Source: an uncultured Psychrobacter sp.
GTDB lineage: Bacteria > Pseudomonadota > Gammaproteobacteria > Pseudomonadales > Moraxellaceae
Direction of reading: 5' to 3'
Assembly (NCBI RefSeq): GCF_947488565.1
Contig: NZ_CANKZC010000001.1
Span: 620,001 to 684,000 of the forward strand
DNA: 64,000 bases
The position numbers and the translations under genes were made by a program. Shown piece after piece: positions 56,150 through 64,000 of this stretch; position 1 is the stretch's first letter, and every line of letters begins with the position of its first letter. The notes below the pieces were generated by a model that had not been told where the DNA came from, did not search any database, and saw only the letters and a program-made list of their open reading frames with translations.

Positions 56150-56832
56150 ATATCTTCCTTAACTATAGAACGTGTGGTCGTGCTGAATTACATCCCTACC
56201 ATGTCGTCTTTACAAAACGATCATATTGTAGATACTGATGCAGGATTGGCTTTTTTACAGTAAATAAAAGGCTAGCGGATTTAATAACCCATAAGTTGAG
56301 CAACCGATAGGCGTTGTGACATTGATAGATTAGATCTACTACATATTATTGTGAGACTACGGTTTGAAAATACTGATTGTGCATAGATGGGATAGATATG
56401 ACAAAGACAGTAATTATAGTGCGCAGCATATGCGGTCAGAACGATTGGTTGCTTGATAGCTCTTATTTAATTTACCTTGCTACTGAAAAAAGTCAATCCC
56501 GTATTGCAATATAAATGCTACCAATTATGAATGACTATAATTTTAAACCCACCTGTCACCATACAACCCTTTGATTTTTATACCATATTAAAACAGATAA
56601 CGGTATCAGCGGTATCAAAAACAAAACAAAAGGTAAAAAAACCGGCTTAATTCTAATAATTCTAATAATTCTATATCAATATAAAGAGTATGGGTTTATA
56701 ATAATCCACATTGCTAGTAGGGTATTATAATCGTTTACCTGAATACATCGTTTACCTGAGTACAAGACTCCTTTTTAACTTTACCAACGAATGGCATATG
56801 ACCATTTAACTATAAGGGATTGTGAGATATCT
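56150..56832. other. Intergenic region between gdhA and the Roadblock operon
   Basis: About 680 bases, AT-rich, holding the divergent promoters. TAATTCTAATAATTCTA (near 56651-56670) is a small direct repeat of TAATTCTAA. No gene is supported. Confidence 0.4.
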
Positions 56833-57195
56833 ATGCGTACAGATACGTTCCAACAAATACTAGAAGACCTCAATAGCTCATCAGCAGATGTCGAAGCGTC
56901 TGCTCTAATCTCAAATGATGGCTTAATGATAGCGTCAGCGTTACCGACAGGCATCGATGAAGACCGCGTTGGCGCTATGTCAGCTGCGCTTTTATCACTA
57001 GGTGATCGTGCTGGTCGCGAGTTGGCTCGAGGCAGTATTGACCGAATCATGATTCAAGGTGAAAAAGGCTACGTAATCACCACTTCATCGGGTGATGAAG
57101 CAGTCCTTACGATCATGGCCAAGCCAAATGCCAAACTGGGATTGATTTTTTTGGATATTAAGCGTGCATCAGAGGCACTAGCAAAGCTCATCTAA
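56833..57195 (+). CDS. Roadblock/LC7 domain protein
   Basis: 120 residues from the ATG at 56833. The whole protein is one Roadblock domain: FQQILEDLNSSSADVEASAL, ISNDGLMIASALPTG, SAALLSLGDRAGRELARG and VLTIMAKPNAKLGLIFLDIK. In bacteria these dimers often act as partners of Ras-like GTPases (MglB with MglA) or as regulatory modules. No GTPase gene is found here. An ATG at 56791 would add 14 residues but has no better start context. It opens a five-gene operon with short gaps. Confidence 0.88.
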   Translation: MRTDTFQQILEDLNSSSADVEASALISNDGLMIASALPTGIDEDRVGAMSAALLSLGDRAGRELARGSIDRIMIQGEKGYVITTSSGDEAVLTIMAKPNAKLGLIFLDIKRASEALAKLI

Positions 57196-57244
57196 ACAGA
57201 CTTAGATAACCGAGAATTTAGAACAGTAAATATAGGAAATACTT

Positions 57245-57739
57245 ATGGGCTCTCCACTTTTAGATGCTGCAAAGCCTGACATACCAGCTAAAGAAGTTAG
57301 CATAACCTATCATGACGGTGTCTCACGTACGATTTATGATTCGGGGATCGAGCGTCCCTACCCTGATGGTAAGCTTATCGTCTCACGTACTGACTTGGAT
57401 GGTCATCTTACCCATGTAAACGATGCTTTCGTTGAAATCAGTGGCTATACGATAGATGAGCTGATCGGTCAACAGCACTATATCTTGCGCCACCCTGATA
57501 TGCCAAGTGCCGCCTACCAAGACTTATGGCAGACGGTAAAATCAGGACAAAAATGGCACGGCTACGTCAAAAACCTGTGCAAAGATGGTAGCCACTATTG
57601 GGTGTATGCAACGGTCGTTCCTAACATACGCCGCGGACAGACCGTCGGTTATACCTCTGTACGCCGTCAGCCGTCACGTCGCAAGATAGAAGCCGCGATC
57701 ACGCAATATGCTCAAATGAAACAGAATGAGGAAGGTTAA
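57245..57739 (+). CDS. Soluble Aer-like PAS domain protein
   Basis: 164 residues, no membrane helix. One PAS domain (about 40-140): SRTDLDGHLTHVNDAFVEIS, GYTIDELIGQQHYILRHPDM, then KNLCKDGSHYWVYATVVPNI and GYTSVRRQPSRRKIEAAI. This follows E. coli Aer closely, including RHPDMP, the block that contacts FAD, and the KNxxKxGxHYWVxAxxVP stretch. Aer senses redox state through FAD, so this may be a soluble redox sensor. It lacks the HAMP and receptor parts. AGGAAA precedes the ATG; the next gene starts 3 bases after its stop. Confidence 0.9.
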   Translation: MGSPLLDAAKPDIPAKEVSITYHDGVSRTIYDSGIERPYPDGKLIVSRTDLDGHLTHVNDAFVEISGYTIDELIGQQHYILRHPDMPSAAYQDLWQTVKSGQKWHGYVKNLCKDGSHYWVYATVVPNIRRGQTVGYTSVRRQPSRRKIEAAITQYAQMKQNEEG

Positions 57740-57742
57740 ACC

Positions 57743-58498
57743 ATGAACGAAAAAACCTATAACCTATTAATCGCTCCTGATTTTTCGCCTGATCGTTTTG
57801 CAGGCTGGCACATGTTTAATACCTTGATTCAAAAGCGTGCTGACATTCACTTGCATCTCAATACGCCCACCTCTCATGTTGAGCAAGAAGAGATGGTCAA
57901 TGCTGGTAACATACATATTATCTATGCCAACCCCTTTGACGCTGCTGCTTTGATTCGGGAAAAAGGCTATCGCGCCATTGCGCGTCCCATCGGCAAATCA
58001 GATGAAATGGTAATTGCCGCGTCTGCCAATAGTGATATTAAGCGCTTAGAGGATTTGACCAAAGGCGCGTCTGTCGCTATGGCAGACAACCGTGATGTAA
58101 AGCTTATCGGTCTGCGCTTATTAGAAGCGGTAGATTTAGAAGAGTCCGATCTCATCTGGGAGGTAACCGAAAACTATCAAGCGGCAGCAAGGCAGGTCAT
58201 CAAAGGTGACGCTCAAGTGGCGTTTTTCTTAGCAGAAATCTTTCACAGCTTCTCACGTTTGACTAAAGCACAACTGTCAGTGCTGATCGAAAGTGATCTG
58301 GCAGATATTAGCCATATATTACTGATTAAAGATGACTTCGCTGATGCCCAGGCATTGAGTCAGGCGTTACTGGCCTTTCATCAAGATGATAGCGGTAAAG
58401 AAGCACTGACCGAGCTTGGTATGCCGCAAGGGTTTGAGGCAATGAGTGAAGAAGATGGTGAGTTTATGTTAGATCTGATGGAAACCTTGCTCGATTAA
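57743..58498 (+). CDS. PhnD-like substrate-binding protein without signal peptide
   Basis: 251 residues. The pattern YNLLIAPDFSPDRFAGWHMF, IIYANPFDAAALIREKGYRA, VIAASANSDIKRLEDLTKGA and AARQVIKGDAQVAFFLAEIF is that of the PhnD/SsuA/transferrin-like binding fold. There is no signal sequence or lipobox, so it is likely cytoplasmic, unlike ABC transporter partners. It may bind a small ligand for signalling. GAGGAAGG lies 7 bases before the ATG; it almost abuts the PAS gene. Confidence 0.8.
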   Translation: MNEKTYNLLIAPDFSPDRFAGWHMFNTLIQKRADIHLHLNTPTSHVEQEEMVNAGNIHIIYANPFDAAALIREKGYRAIARPIGKSDEMVIAASANSDIKRLEDLTKGASVAMADNRDVKLIGLRLLEAVDLEESDLIWEVTENYQAAARQVIKGDAQVAFFLAEIFHSFSRLTKAQLSVLIESDLADISHILLIKDDFADAQALSQALLAFHQDDSGKEALTELGMPQGFEAMSEEDGEFMLDLMETLLD

Positions 58499-58540
58499 GC
58501 GTCAAAACCTAACATTCCTTTTTATATTTAGGACACCGTC

Positions 58541-59218
58541 ATGGCTGATTTATCTGCAACTGATGATTTATCGTTGTCTAAAGATAGTGAGATGATTGCC
58601 CGTCATACGTATCGTTATTATGCGCGAAAGATCTTTATCGATCCTAGCAACCGCTACTATCACGAACAGCGTATTAATGCTGCGTTGCTACTTAACGAAA
58701 AAGAACCGCTACAAGGCGCGGTCGCCGACTTTTTCTTTGGCTGTTGGTATGACATTCCTTACGATGTCAAAGATATCTTTGCCCGTATTCAAGGTCGCCT
58801 GCATCCGCAGATAGAACACGCTTTTCATAACTGTATTAACAAGCTCGATTACATCAAGTACAGCAGTGAGTTTGCAACGCGCTGGAGCGTGCTGGTGACA
58901 CCATCGTTAAACGTACAGACTCATCGTCTACGCATCAGTAGCGACGATGCAAAAGAAATCGCCAAAAACATTACCACTGAGCTTATGAGTGCGCGTGCTG
59001 CTGAAGATTGGCATACAATTGAACAAGTTGAACGTGAGTTTTTTGCGCACTGCTTGGCCTGTAATGATCGCTTGGCTTTTTCCATCGTTTGGTTTGGTTT
59101 GGGCAAGAGCGATTGGCAGTTTGATGAGCGCTGGTGTGACTGTCAGCAGCAACTAGAACAAACCGGCTCTACCGTCCTAAAAAATACGCAGAATTTAGAC
59201 CATAAATTAAGCGTGTAG
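58541..59218 (+). CDS. Protein of unknown function in the Roadblock/PAS operon
   Basis: 225 residues, soluble, no signal. I do not recognise the family. The N-terminus is aromatic (HTYRYYARKIFIDPSNRYYH) and the C-terminus holds a Cys/Trp-rich part (FFAHCLACNDRLAFSIVWFG, then ERWCDCQQQ). AGGACACC precedes the ATG. It lies 42 bases after the PhnD-like gene, so it is probably co-transcribed. Confidence 0.75.
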   Translation: MADLSATDDLSLSKDSEMIARHTYRYYARKIFIDPSNRYYHEQRINAALLLNEKEPLQGAVADFFFGCWYDIPYDVKDIFARIQGRLHPQIEHAFHNCINKLDYIKYSSEFATRWSVLVTPSLNVQTHRLRISSDDAKEIAKNITTELMSARAAEDWHTIEQVEREFFAHCLACNDRLAFSIVWFGLGKSDWQFDERWCDCQQQLEQTGSTVLKNTQNLDHKLSV

Positions 59219-59314
59219 CGGTTACTTACCCAACAGTTATTTGCCGCATTGAGCATTGCTGTAGCCACTTACTACTTATTCATTTTTACTCATTCTGTCA
59301 ACGAGAACGTTTTT

Positions 59315-59935
59315 ATGTCCATTTTTGATAATGCTGACAAAACCTATATTACCTTGACCCCTGCTGGCGTATTTGAGGCTTTTTCCCAACAGCAACCGAC
59401 CGCCCAGCAGCTAGCACTACAGGCGCTCCTATCCTATCGCGAGACGATGCTGGTCGCAGTATGGTTAGAGGAGTACTCAGAGCGCTGGCTAAATAGCTTC
59501 GTTGAGCAAGGGTTTATCGAAAAGCTATCTACCTTTTTGCCCGCGCCCAACTTACCGCTTGATCAGTTTTTGCCGTATGTGGTCGCAAGCTTGTCTGGTA
59601 AGCGCCGTGCTGCTATTGCCTCAGATGAAGGGTTTTGCTTAGCCCGCATTGGCTATAGTCAAGAAGAAGCAGATATGCTGAGCGTAGCAGCTGCGGATTT
59701 TTCTGGATTTATGCTACGCCAAAAGCAGCGCGGCTGGGCGATTGAAAGCCAAGCGATATCGTTCTTTCAGCAAGTTGATTTATTGATACCTGAGACCAGC
59801 TTTGTATTTTTGTGGATTGATGGTGGCGGCTACGCTCTCATTATCGATGGTGAACCACTGACTAACAATCGCGCCTTTGTGGAGCTCATCTGGGGAATCA
59901 AAACCTCTGGGCTACGATTTGATAATTCAATTTGA
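59315..59935 (+). CDS. Protein of unknown function, last gene of the Roadblock/PAS operon
   Basis: 206 residues from the ATG at 59315; a TTG frame at 59249 would add 22 residues. Soluble, no signal. Not recognised. Visible parts are TPAGVFEAFSQQQPTAQQLA, VWLEEYSERWLNSFVEQGFI and a C-terminal FVFLWIDGGGYALIIDGEPL. The gap to the previous gene is 96 bases, the longest in the operon, so co-transcription is likely but less certain. Confidence 0.7.
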   Translation: MSIFDNADKTYITLTPAGVFEAFSQQQPTAQQLALQALLSYRETMLVAVWLEEYSERWLNSFVEQGFIEKLSTFLPAPNLPLDQFLPYVVASLSGKRRAAIASDEGFCLARIGYSQEEADMLSVAAADFSGFMLRQKQRGWAIESQAISFFQQVDLLIPETSFVFLWIDGGGYALIIDGEPLTNNRAFVELIWGIKTSGLRFDNSI

Positions 59936-61592: not shown

Positions 61593-64000
61593 ATGAATCG
61601 CAATTATAAAGTTATTTGGAATCAGTCATTAAACTGTTTTATGGCAGTTGCAGAATATGCAAAGAGCCGAGGAAAATCATCAAGTACCGTCGTAAGCTCT
61701 AACGCTGCAAATGTCTCCAATGGCACGACAACAGGAGGTGCGCACTTGTTGCGGTTAAGTGCGTTGTGTATTGGACTTGCGAGTGCTGGGTTTAGTATGC
61801 AAGCATCAGCTATCGCTGCTTGTGCTGAGGATAATGCAGCAGGTGCAAGTGTGGTTGACAGAGTACAGTGCGGTACTGGGGCAAACGCTGCGGGAGGTAC
61901 AAGCGTGGCTATCGGTCAAAATGCCCAAGCGACAGGCGGTCAATCAATTGCCATTGGTGGAGTAAACGGTGGGCAGAATACGACAGCAAGTGGTGATCAA
62001 TCCACGGCTATCGGTGCGAACGCAGTATCATCAGGCAGCTCCTCTATTGCCATCGGCGGTGATGATCTAAACAAAGCCTCTGGAACTACTGTAAACCAAG
62101 ATGGTACAGAGACTGTTGGCGCAGTCAACAGCGGTGAAGTCAATACAATTTTTAAAAAGTATTCTGGTGGCCGAGATTTAGTCGATACATCGGCAGGCGG
62201 TAATCAATACCCTAATACAGCATCAAGTGGTGCCGCTTCCGTCGCCATTGGTGTACAAGCGGTCTCCTCTGGCGCACTATCAACTGCGTTTGGTACGCAG
62301 GCCAATGCTACAGGTGTTGCCTCATCAGCTTTTGGTGTCTCTGCTGATGCGTCCAAAGAAGGCTCAGTGGCTATTGGCGCAGGTAGTAAAACGGATGGTA
62401 GCGCGACAAAGGTCGAAAGCCAGACAGTCAACGGTGTTACCTTCGCAGGGTTTGACGGTGCGTCAGGTTTTGCTGGTAATGCAAGCGATGCTGGACGTCA
62501 AGTGTCTGTTGGTCTTATAGGTAATGAGCGCCAGATCAAAAACGTGGCACCAGGTGAGATATCCTCAACCTCCACCGATGCGATTAATGGTAGTCAGGTT
62601 TTTTCAGTGACCAATGAGTTGGTTGATAATATCAGAGCCGCTCAAGCAACGGCTGATGCTGCATCCACGCAAGCAGACAACGCCGTTCAATATGATGACA
62701 ACACAAAAGACAACGTTACCCTAGGTGGTGCGAATGGTACTACAATCACTAATGTCAAAGCAGGCGACTTGAGTGACAACAGCACGGACGCGGTCAATGG
62801 CAGTCAACTGAATGCCACCAATCAAGACGTGGCCGCTAATAGAGCAGACATTGATACCAATACAGGCAATATTAGCGACCTTACCACAGGTAAAACGGGG
62901 CTTGTCCGTCAAGACACTGGCACTGGTCCAATCACTGTTGGCGCTGCTACTGGTGGTACGAGCGTTGATTTCACAAATTTAGCAGGCGATGCCCGTACAC
63001 TGACAGGTGTCGCTGATGGCGTTAATGACAATGACGCGGTGAACTTCGGTCAGCTAAACCGAACGGTTGCAGACAATAAAGTCAAGTACTTCAGCGTGAA
63101 TTCCACAGGTGGTGGTAACGTAAACAATGACGGTGCACAAGGCACCAATGCAATAGCCATTGGTAAAGATGCTAAAGTTGCTGATGGTCATAATAGCTCT
63201 ATCGCTATGGGGCTTGGGGCGAAGGTTGACAGGGGACCCGATACAGGAGCTGCGCTACCATTCGGTGCAGTTGCTATTGGTAATAAAGCATGGGCTAGGG
63301 GGACTAACTCTGTTGCCCTCGGTACTGATGCGACAACATCCGTCTTTGATAGGGGGCTTGCCATTGGTAATAAAGCTGAGTCATTAGGCTCTGATGCAAC
63401 GGCGATAGGCAGCGAAGCTGTTGCAGCCTCTGTTGGGGTGGCGCTTGGTAATAAGGCTAAGGCACACAATACCCGCAGTATTGCAATTGGTGACAACGCT
63501 GTAGCGGGTGTTGTTGGTGGTGATTTTGCTGACGGTGCAAGCTCTTACGGAATTGCTATCGGTCAACGGTCAACGGTCAAGGGTGAAGCTAGTATTGCCA
63601 TAGGTCGACTGGCAAACACTTCAGGTAAAGATGCATTGGCTATTGGTCGAGAATCTATTGCAGCTGCAAATGGTACTGCTATTGGCGCAGGAGCTAAAGC
63701 AAATAAAGCAGGTGGTGTTGCCATTGGTGCAGGCTCTATAGCTAATATAGAAGCAGGTATTAAAGGCTTTGACCCTTCTACGGGTGGCGCAACTACCAAA
63801 ACATCAAATGTGTGGCAATCTACTCGAGCAGCTGTAGCTTTAGGAGATAGTGATAATGGAGTCACCCGTCAATTAACTGGATTGGCAGCAGGTACCAATG
63901 ATTCTGATGCGGTAAACGTCGCGCAGCTCAGATCCACCAATGACAGAGTGACCACCAACACCGATGACATCGCTGACCTAGCTTCTGGTCGCACCGGTAT
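61593..64000 (+). CDS. Trimeric autotransporter adhesin (YadA/Hia type), N-terminal part
   Basis: Partial: 802 codons from the ATG at 61593, open at the window end. Extended signal region MNRNYKVIWNQSLNCFMAVA (ESPR) is followed by a hydrophobic segment ending near MQASA (69-73). The passenger then has YadA-like head repeats of S/T-x-A-I-G-x-x-A type (61,890-62,370 and 63,130-63,740), separated by stalk segments with neck motifs DAVNGSQLNATN and DAVNFGQLN, and TGL repeats. The membrane anchor lies past the edge. AGGA is 9 bases before the ATG. Secretion by the type V pathway and a role in adhesion are inferred from the family. Confidence 0.95.
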   Translation, partial: MNRNYKVIWNQSLNCFMAVAEYAKSRGKSSSTVVSSNAANVSNGTTTGGAHLLRLSALCIGLASAGFSMQASAIAACAEDNAAGASVVDRVQCGTGANAAGGTSVAIGQNAQATGGQSIAIGGVNGGQNTTASGDQSTAIGANAVSSGSSSIAIGGDDLNKASGTTVNQDGTETVGAVNSGEVNTIFKKYSGGRDLVDTSAGGNQYPNTASSGAASVAIGVQAVSSGALSTAFGTQANATGVASSAFGVSADASKEGSVAIGAGSKTDGSATKVESQTVNGVTFAGFDGASGFAGNASDAGRQVSVGLIGNERQIKNVAPGEISSTSTDAINGSQVFSVTNELVDNIRAAQATADAASTQADNAVQYDDNTKDNVTLGGANGTTITNVKAGDLSDNSTDAVNGSQLNATNQDVAANRADIDTNTGNISDLTTGKTGLVRQDTGTGPITVGAATGGTSVDFTNLAGDARTLTGVADGVNDNDAVNFGQLNRTVADNKVKYFSVNSTGGGNVNNDGAQGTNAIAIGKDAKVADGHNSSIAMGLGAKVDRGPDTGAALPFGAVAIGNKAWARGTNSVALGTDATTSVFDRGLAIGNKAESLGSDATAIGSEAVAASVGVALGNKAKAHNTRSIAIGDNAVAGVVGGDFADGASSYGIAIGQRSTVKGEASIAIGRLANTSGKDALAIGRESIAAANGTAIGAGAKANKAGGVAIGAGSIANIEAGIKGFDPSTGGATTKTSNVWQSTRAAVALGDSDNGVTRQLTGLAAGTNDSDAVNVAQLRSTNDRVTTNTDDIADLASGRTG

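Follow-up and report, generated by a model that had tools for sequence, protein, structure and literature searches.

A GTPase-less Roadblock operon with Aer-type PAS and PhnD-fold partners in Psychrobacter, a probable descendant of Group 3 MglA/MglB-type modules

Gene organization of the operon

The Roadblock operon described here lies in a contig of an uncultured Psychrobacter sp. (NZ_CANKZC010000001.1, positions 620,001 to 684,000). This whole stretch of 64,000 nucleotides is referred to as the window and all coordinates are given in it. The operon occupies positions 56833-59935 of the + strand and consists of five open reading frames (ORFs) coding for a Roadblock protein, a PAS protein, a PhnD-fold protein and two further proteins, G4 and G5, separated by gaps of 49, 3, 42 and 96 bases. 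ORF calls and Pfam searches confirmed the original prediction of five same-strand genes with these gaps, three domain identities and two unassigned proteins. The first gene (56833..57195, +) encodes a Roadblock/LC7 protein of the MglB type with 120 amino acids (Pfam Robl_LC7, E 1.1e-17). Roadblock proteins of the MglB type are known regulators of Ras-like GTPases. A start at the upstream ATG at 56791 was disfavoured, as the MR start common to the relatives points to the ATG at 56833. The second gene (57245..57739, +) encodes a soluble Aer-type PAS protein of 164 amino acids (PAS_3, E 6.3e-18) and the third (57743..58498, +) a 251 amino acid protein with the Phosphonate-bd domain (PF12974, E 1.8e-37), predicted to be cytosolic from hydropathy and homologue alignment. 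G4 (58541..59218, +) and G5 (59315..59935, +) have 225 and 206 amino acids, respectively, and searches of Pfam and NCBIfam gave no match above cut-off for either. No membrane helix or signal peptide stretch was found in the five proteins (highest 19-residue Kyte-Doolittle mean 1.25). Promoter- and terminator-like sites were not more frequent than in shuffled sequence.

Conservation in the family and absence of the GTPase

Among 149 genomes from the family Moraxellaceae, 49 encode G4, and it is these 49 that also encode G5. A Roadblock protein with at least 84% identity is encoded in 48 of those 49, while the exception (G033) possesses a partial Roadblock with an internal stop. The order Roadblock-PAS-PhnD-G4...G5 was observed in 16 of 18 fetched family loci; L036 ends at a contig end, and in L046 neither PAS nor PhnD was matched. 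In L035, PAS is split over two ORFs. Synteny above chance, which had been set as a test of the predicted operon, is evident from the joint occurrence of G4 and G5 and from this shared order.

In 15 of the 18 loci, genes for an X protein (383-463 amino acids as called) and a small GTPase are situated between G4 and G5, the site which corresponds to the 96-base G4-G5 junction of the window (59219..59314). Of the 149 family genomes, the 15 with the X protein are also the 15 with the operon-type GTPase. The three loci without them (L044, L046 and L048) formed one starred group in the tree described below. The family order is Roadblock-PAS-PhnD-G4-X-GTPase-G5, rotated relative to the order G4-X-GTPase-G5-Roadblock-PAS-PhnD of relatives elsewhere. 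A second X-like protein was noticed in one family genome (L050:6955-8373) with no GTPase or Roadblock match nearby. L052 and L053 carry another Roadblock/GTPase operon with apparent ABC-type ATPase, ferredoxin-like and PAS-like genes, as judged by eye.

A link to a small GTPase encoded elsewhere had been proposed for the operon. The link itself is supported by the relatives, which encode a GTPase inside the same operon, but no GTPase of the operon type was detected elsewhere in the window genome. The direct query gave no match at E 1e-3, and a 12-row GTPase profile gave only a 29-position match with E 0.24. PF03029 also found no match in the window genome, which is a weak test: this model matched in 8 of 60 genomes and missed the GTPases of G057, G062, G085 and G118 that the direct query found. 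Elsewhere in the family the same query detected paralogues at 34-46% identity. No match to one X protein query (P0007) was found in the window genome, a weaker test since X diverges fast. No GTPase of the operon kind was thus found in the window genome, which may still encode one of another family, and the operon keeps five of the seven module genes.

The paralogues are relevant to a possible partner swap, in which Roadblock would still regulate a GTPase or another NTPase encoded elsewhere, such as a divergent P-loop protein or a pilus ATPase. Among 31 congeners that have G5 and no operon GTPase, 14 possess a paralogous GTPase elsewhere in the genome, and Roadblock itself has hardly changed in sequence where the GTPase is missing, with Asp29-Gly30 still in place. 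Against this, the other 17 congeners, including the window genome, showed no match anywhere, and the one congeneric paralogue examined (G140, L056) adjoins its own Roadblock gene. A partner swap is therefore considered rather unlikely.

The terminal Asp of the G4 motif, a sequence motif of the GTPase itself, is replaced in the 12 family GTPases (Glu in 11, Gln in 1), while relatives elsewhere mostly keep Asp. Perhaps this replacement was a first step to loss.

Wider distribution and history of the GTPase

Within the order, 390 genomes were searched with the G5 profile; 28 gave a match, and 16 of the 28 do not belong to the family. Fifteen of these 16 were fetched (G415 was left out), and in 14 of the 15 G5 is placed beside Roadblock in the order G4-X-(GTPase)-G5-Roadblock-PAS-PhnD. 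In the remaining one, L087, a G5-like protein is encoded outside any such module. The GTPase is present in three of the 14 loci (L078, L085 and L086) and absent from the locus in 11. Single genes stayed unmatched in a few loci, namely PAS/PhnD in L075, the X ORF in L079 and, at first, G4 in L085 and L086.

An 11-row Roadblock alignment was scanned against 84,980 species genomes, and the best 80 of 498 relative-encoding stretches were used. The genera among these best 80 include Neptuniibacter, Amphritea, Marinobacterium, Thiothrix, Leucothrix and Methylocaldum, along with tubeworm symbionts and others. In 69 of the 80 loci with enough flanking sequence, G5 was found near Roadblock in 65, the X protein in 66, G4 in 65 and the GTPase in 38. 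Three of the 69, L161 among them, showed no module partner at the positions inspected. A search of plasmid, phage and viral collections gave no close relative; the best match was a Roadblock of 51% identity from Neisseria gonorrhoeae records which are filed as plasmids but have the size of chromosomes. One such record (L190) has an mgl cluster in pieces, with X-, GTPase- and G5-like parts, followed by a Roadblock reading frame which is 51% identical to that of the window over residues 9-120.

To follow the GTPase, a tree of Roadblock and G5 from 116 loci was built by a quick method under LG+G4 (112 rows distinct, some records fetched twice). It was made without L036, L121, L139, L150 and L161, in which Roadblock or G5 is missing, without L087 and L088 (a duplicate of L078), and without 11 of 20 close-relative loci. 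The X label of the tree was unused, as the distant-X profile gave '-' for the family rows despite the X protein in 15 of 18 loci. The GTPase is present in 62 rows and absent in 54, which needs at least four changes, three of them forced by starred branches. The GTPase-less rows belong to a Neptuniibacter/Amphritea clade (40), the genus of the window (10), L044/L046/L048, and L137, whose position among long branches is unsure. For the Neptuniibacter/Amphritea clade absence means absence from the locus; copies elsewhere in the genome were sought in the family of the window. The change counts do not separate gain from loss, but loss is the simpler reading because the arrangement of genes around the GTPase is constant among the loci that have it. 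Repeated loss of the GTPase is thus likely.

PAS and PhnD-fold proteins as partners of Roadblock

Among solved structures, the PAS protein is best matched by the PAS domain of Aer, the aerotaxis receptor (8dik, E 7.5e-38), the RHPDMP block (57488..57505, +) included. A set of 91 PAS proteins was compared: every one has RHPxxP, and 85 have RHPDMP. The window protein resembles the E. coli receptor in sequence and shares RHPDMP with it, whereas the membrane and signalling parts of Aer have no counterpart in it. Its 164 amino acids matched PAS families alone and contained no hydrophobic stretch, in agreement with the earlier view of a protein without membrane or receptor part. From this likeness, the cofactor is probably FAD and the protein probably senses redox state.

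The third protein shares the Phosphonate-bd domain with the periplasmic binding protein PhnD. PhnD is exported by means of a signal peptide, whereas the N-terminus of the window protein is not hydrophobic, so that the predicted lack of a signal peptide held. It scored far below the cut-off of the PhnD-specific model TIGR03431. Its C-terminal end is an acidic tail of the E..EFM.DLM.TL type (58442..58495, +), and the motif is found in 84 of 90 homologues; among the six misses, four have near-identical tails and two are cut ORFs of one contig.

PAS and PhnD-fold genes travel as a pair. Counting the downstream side of Roadblock in the 69 well-flanked loci, both were found in 46, neither in 23 and one alone in none. 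L161 is the sole locus among the 69 with a lone PAS, which lies upstream and is not accompanied by PhnD. The original prediction of a soluble module for redox and ligand sensing is supported in that the module is conserved, and the sequences make the Aer-type PAS and the cytosolic PhnD-fold protein its probable inputs. The two partners thereby name likely inputs of a Roadblock module.

Other Roadblock genes with globin neighbours were also noticed. In two of the 80 loci, L139 (3415-3972) and L121 (7407-7997), lone Roadblock genes from the same protein family adjoin protoglobin genes (PF11563, E 8.6e-25 and 9.2e-20), which could possibly represent a gas or redox sensor again. L051 and L054 are other GTPase-Roadblock loci with a bacterial globin downstream.

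Sequence constraint on the five genes

Relatives of the window Roadblock among solved structures in PDB include 7f8m, 9jue, cvnB5 and MglB. The Asp29-Gly30 pair (56917..56922, +) corresponds to an Asp-Gly pair that PMC4316618 describes as conserved among the MglB proteins of Groups 2-5. Both columns are at least 95% conserved in the GTPase-bearing loci and in both GTPase-less clades. In total, 62 Roadblock columns are at least 95% conserved where the GTPase is present, and 48 of the 62 are still so in both GTPase-less clades.

Selection was estimated in the window and 20 GTPase-less congeneric loci, all five genes being present in each of the 21. The median omega was 0.013 for Roadblock, 0.049 for PAS, 0.047 for PhnD, 0.047 for G4 and 0.044 for G5, compared with 0.041 for gdhA and 0.115 for an acetyltransferase among the flanking genes (15 loci each); these values are rough, with synonymous divergence (dS) near saturation and an omega value obtained, depending on the gene, from 75-170 of the 210 pairs. 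The five retained genes are under strong purifying selection, Roadblock most of all. The low omega of Roadblock and the columns kept without the GTPase make it unlikely that the operon GTPase is the main constraint on this protein.

These values also bear on the possibility that the operon is a remnant in decay that is being lost. Some genomes would fit such decay: G5 is absent from 18 of 60 genomes of the genus, L046 has a Roadblock with a stop and PAS and PhnD were not found in it, and L060 has a short G4 with Roadblock, PAS and PhnD not found. However, the 21 GTPase-less loci compared all retain the five genes, with low omega, and the GTPase-less state also marks the 40-row clade outside the family (some records counted twice). 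Decay is accordingly regarded as very improbable.

Predicted structures of G4 and G5

The AlphaFold2 model of G4 is all-helical (mean predicted local distance difference test, pLDDT, 82.7; predicted template modelling score, pTM, 0.61). Fold matches gave no clear relative, and tetratricopeptide repeat (TPR) matches stayed below the cut-off in one homologue. G5 was modelled with a mean pLDDT of 87.6 and pTM of 0.82. Its model and the fold search point to a probable second, hidden Roadblock protein, with a winged-helix-like front (residues 8-73; 59336..59533, +) followed by a putative C-terminal Roadblock-type fold (residues 79-202; 59549..59920, +).

The front of G5 raises the possibility of transcription control, in which it would bind DNA under the control of the sensors. 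Residues 8-73 match PriA chains in the fold search, and an X protein with a winged-helix back has been reported with a suggested transcription role (PMC4316618, accessible text). Winged helices also mediate protein contacts, however, and the X protein is missing in the window operon; control of transcription by the module is on the whole unlikely.

Relation to known MglA/MglB systems

The relatives that carry the full operon share several features with Group 3 of the MglA/MglB systems. According to the accessible text of PMC4316618, Group 3 MglA is almost only beta- and gammaproteobacterial and is accompanied by a conserved unknown protein with a receiver-like front and a winged-helix back, plus one or two MglB, while GTPG(Q) in the GTPase motif G3, DAR in the GTPase motif G5 and a G4 motif often without Lys mark the MglA of Groups 2 and 3. 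In 22 operon GTPases of relatives GTPG and DAR are invariant and Q is kept in more than 90%; Lys is absent from the G4 motif in 19 of 22 and present in L120, L140 and L143. The relatives likewise combine Ras-like GTPase motifs, an adjacent X protein and Roadblock protein(s) in one operon. The window differs in having no GTPase or X protein match, although its Roadblock possesses the Asp-Gly pair. PAS, PhnD and G4, all present in the window operon, were not met in the accessible account of Group 3. Judged by sequence features, the ancestral core of the module fits the Group 3 systems, and the second MglBs counted for this group may already include G5.

The original prediction that no described system has this gene set therefore stands in part. 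The core fits Group 3 as described in the accessible text of PMC4316618, but the PAS- and PhnD-bearing form without GTPase was not found described in the literature searched, subscription journals being mostly outside the search. Among the Roadblock papers listed for Acinetobacter or Moraxella none concerned this system, and none was found on Roadblock together with FimV. The kind of system is already known, and its PAS/PhnD-bearing GTPase-less form is new.

Roadblock genes separated from their GTPase are known from other bacteria. Wuichet and Sogaard-Andersen (2014; PMC4316618, accessible text) counted 328 MglB homologues uncoupled from MglA, with no orphan MglB characterised by then. The orphan MglBs met in later work (Snodgrassella, Myxococcus) come from genomes that have MglA (PMC11112851, accessible text). 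Snodgrassella has a Group 3 genome whose orphan mglB encodes a 121 amino acid Roadblock away from its GTPase gene, and a mutation in this mglB was linked to pilus-type spreading. That genome retains mglA, and its accessible description mentions no PAS or PhnD, whereas the window genome has no operon-type GTPase match. For the Myxococcus MglB paralogue MglC, cited in the same source, the genome again has MglA.

Two other systems show partial likeness. In the conservons of Actinobacteria, too, a single operon encodes a sensor, a Roadblock and a Ras-like GTPase together with an unknown protein, but the conservon sensor is histidine kinase-like while the window has a soluble PAS and PhnD (accessible parts of PMC13343842 and PMC4316618). 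Neither a CvnA histidine kinase nor a CvnD GTPase was found among the five window genes. Roadblock is also shared with the MglA/MglB/SgmX system of Myxococcus, where the TPR protein SgmX mediates the action of MglA-GTP (PMC7519303, accessible text); the window has no GTPase and its G4 is helical by prediction.

Proposed model of the module

Taken together, the operon, without its GTPase, probably descends from a gammaproteobacterial signalling module of the Group 3 MglA/MglB type, and its sensor-driven Roadblock complex would no longer need the GTPase. Its core may be a pair of Roadblock proteins, Roadblock and the predicted G5, with the helical partner G4. PAS, responding to redox, and the PhnD-fold protein, responding to a small ligand, would signal straight to this Roadblock assembly; the conserved acidic tail with which the PhnD-like protein ends is likely to serve as a docking helix. 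Freed from regulating the operon GTPase, the assembly would act as a scaffold. A wider reading, that Roadblock proteins can form a stand-alone device in which the GTPase was lost in several lineages and PAS and PhnD sensors now switch the Roadblock pair, is put forward tentatively. A role of Roadblock apart from the GTPase is directly testable in this genus, where the neighbourhood is kept, the GTPase is unfound in many genomes and Roadblock is the best conserved member.

Leads to the output of the module

In some sulfur bacteria, neighbours of the module hint at an output at the cell pole or the pilus. A FimV-like cluster is situated downstream of the module in 27 of 80 loci and a divergent bactofilin cluster upstream in 24 of 80. 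Among those listed (14 each), the FimV and bactofilin loci belong to Thiothrix, Leucothrix, Thiofilum and metagenome-assembled genomes near them. Four FimV-like proteins from three loci were tested; FimV_Cterm was above the cut-off in all four and FimV_core in two. One bactofilin tested matched its family with E 1.5e-22. In the window genome a FimV_core match under the cut-off (E 2e-8) was found elsewhere on the contig.

Among 60 congeners, all five counted without PilB are also without G5, while 13 with PilB are without G5 (Fisher 0.0016, uncorrected for kinship). In this count G539, whose match is cut by a contig end, and G558, which is 86% complete, were scored as present though under the cut-off; G558 has no G5. 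FimV and G5 showed a similar comparison (Fisher 0.021, uncorrected for kinship), with two genomes without a FimV match having G5. With low confidence, the cell-pole or type IV pilus machinery is suggested as the target of the operon, a pilus output being proposed by analogy with the Myxococcus system.

Downstream of the operon, a long + strand ORF (61593-63998) stays open at the window end, and its repeats presumably resemble those of trimeric autotransporter adhesins.

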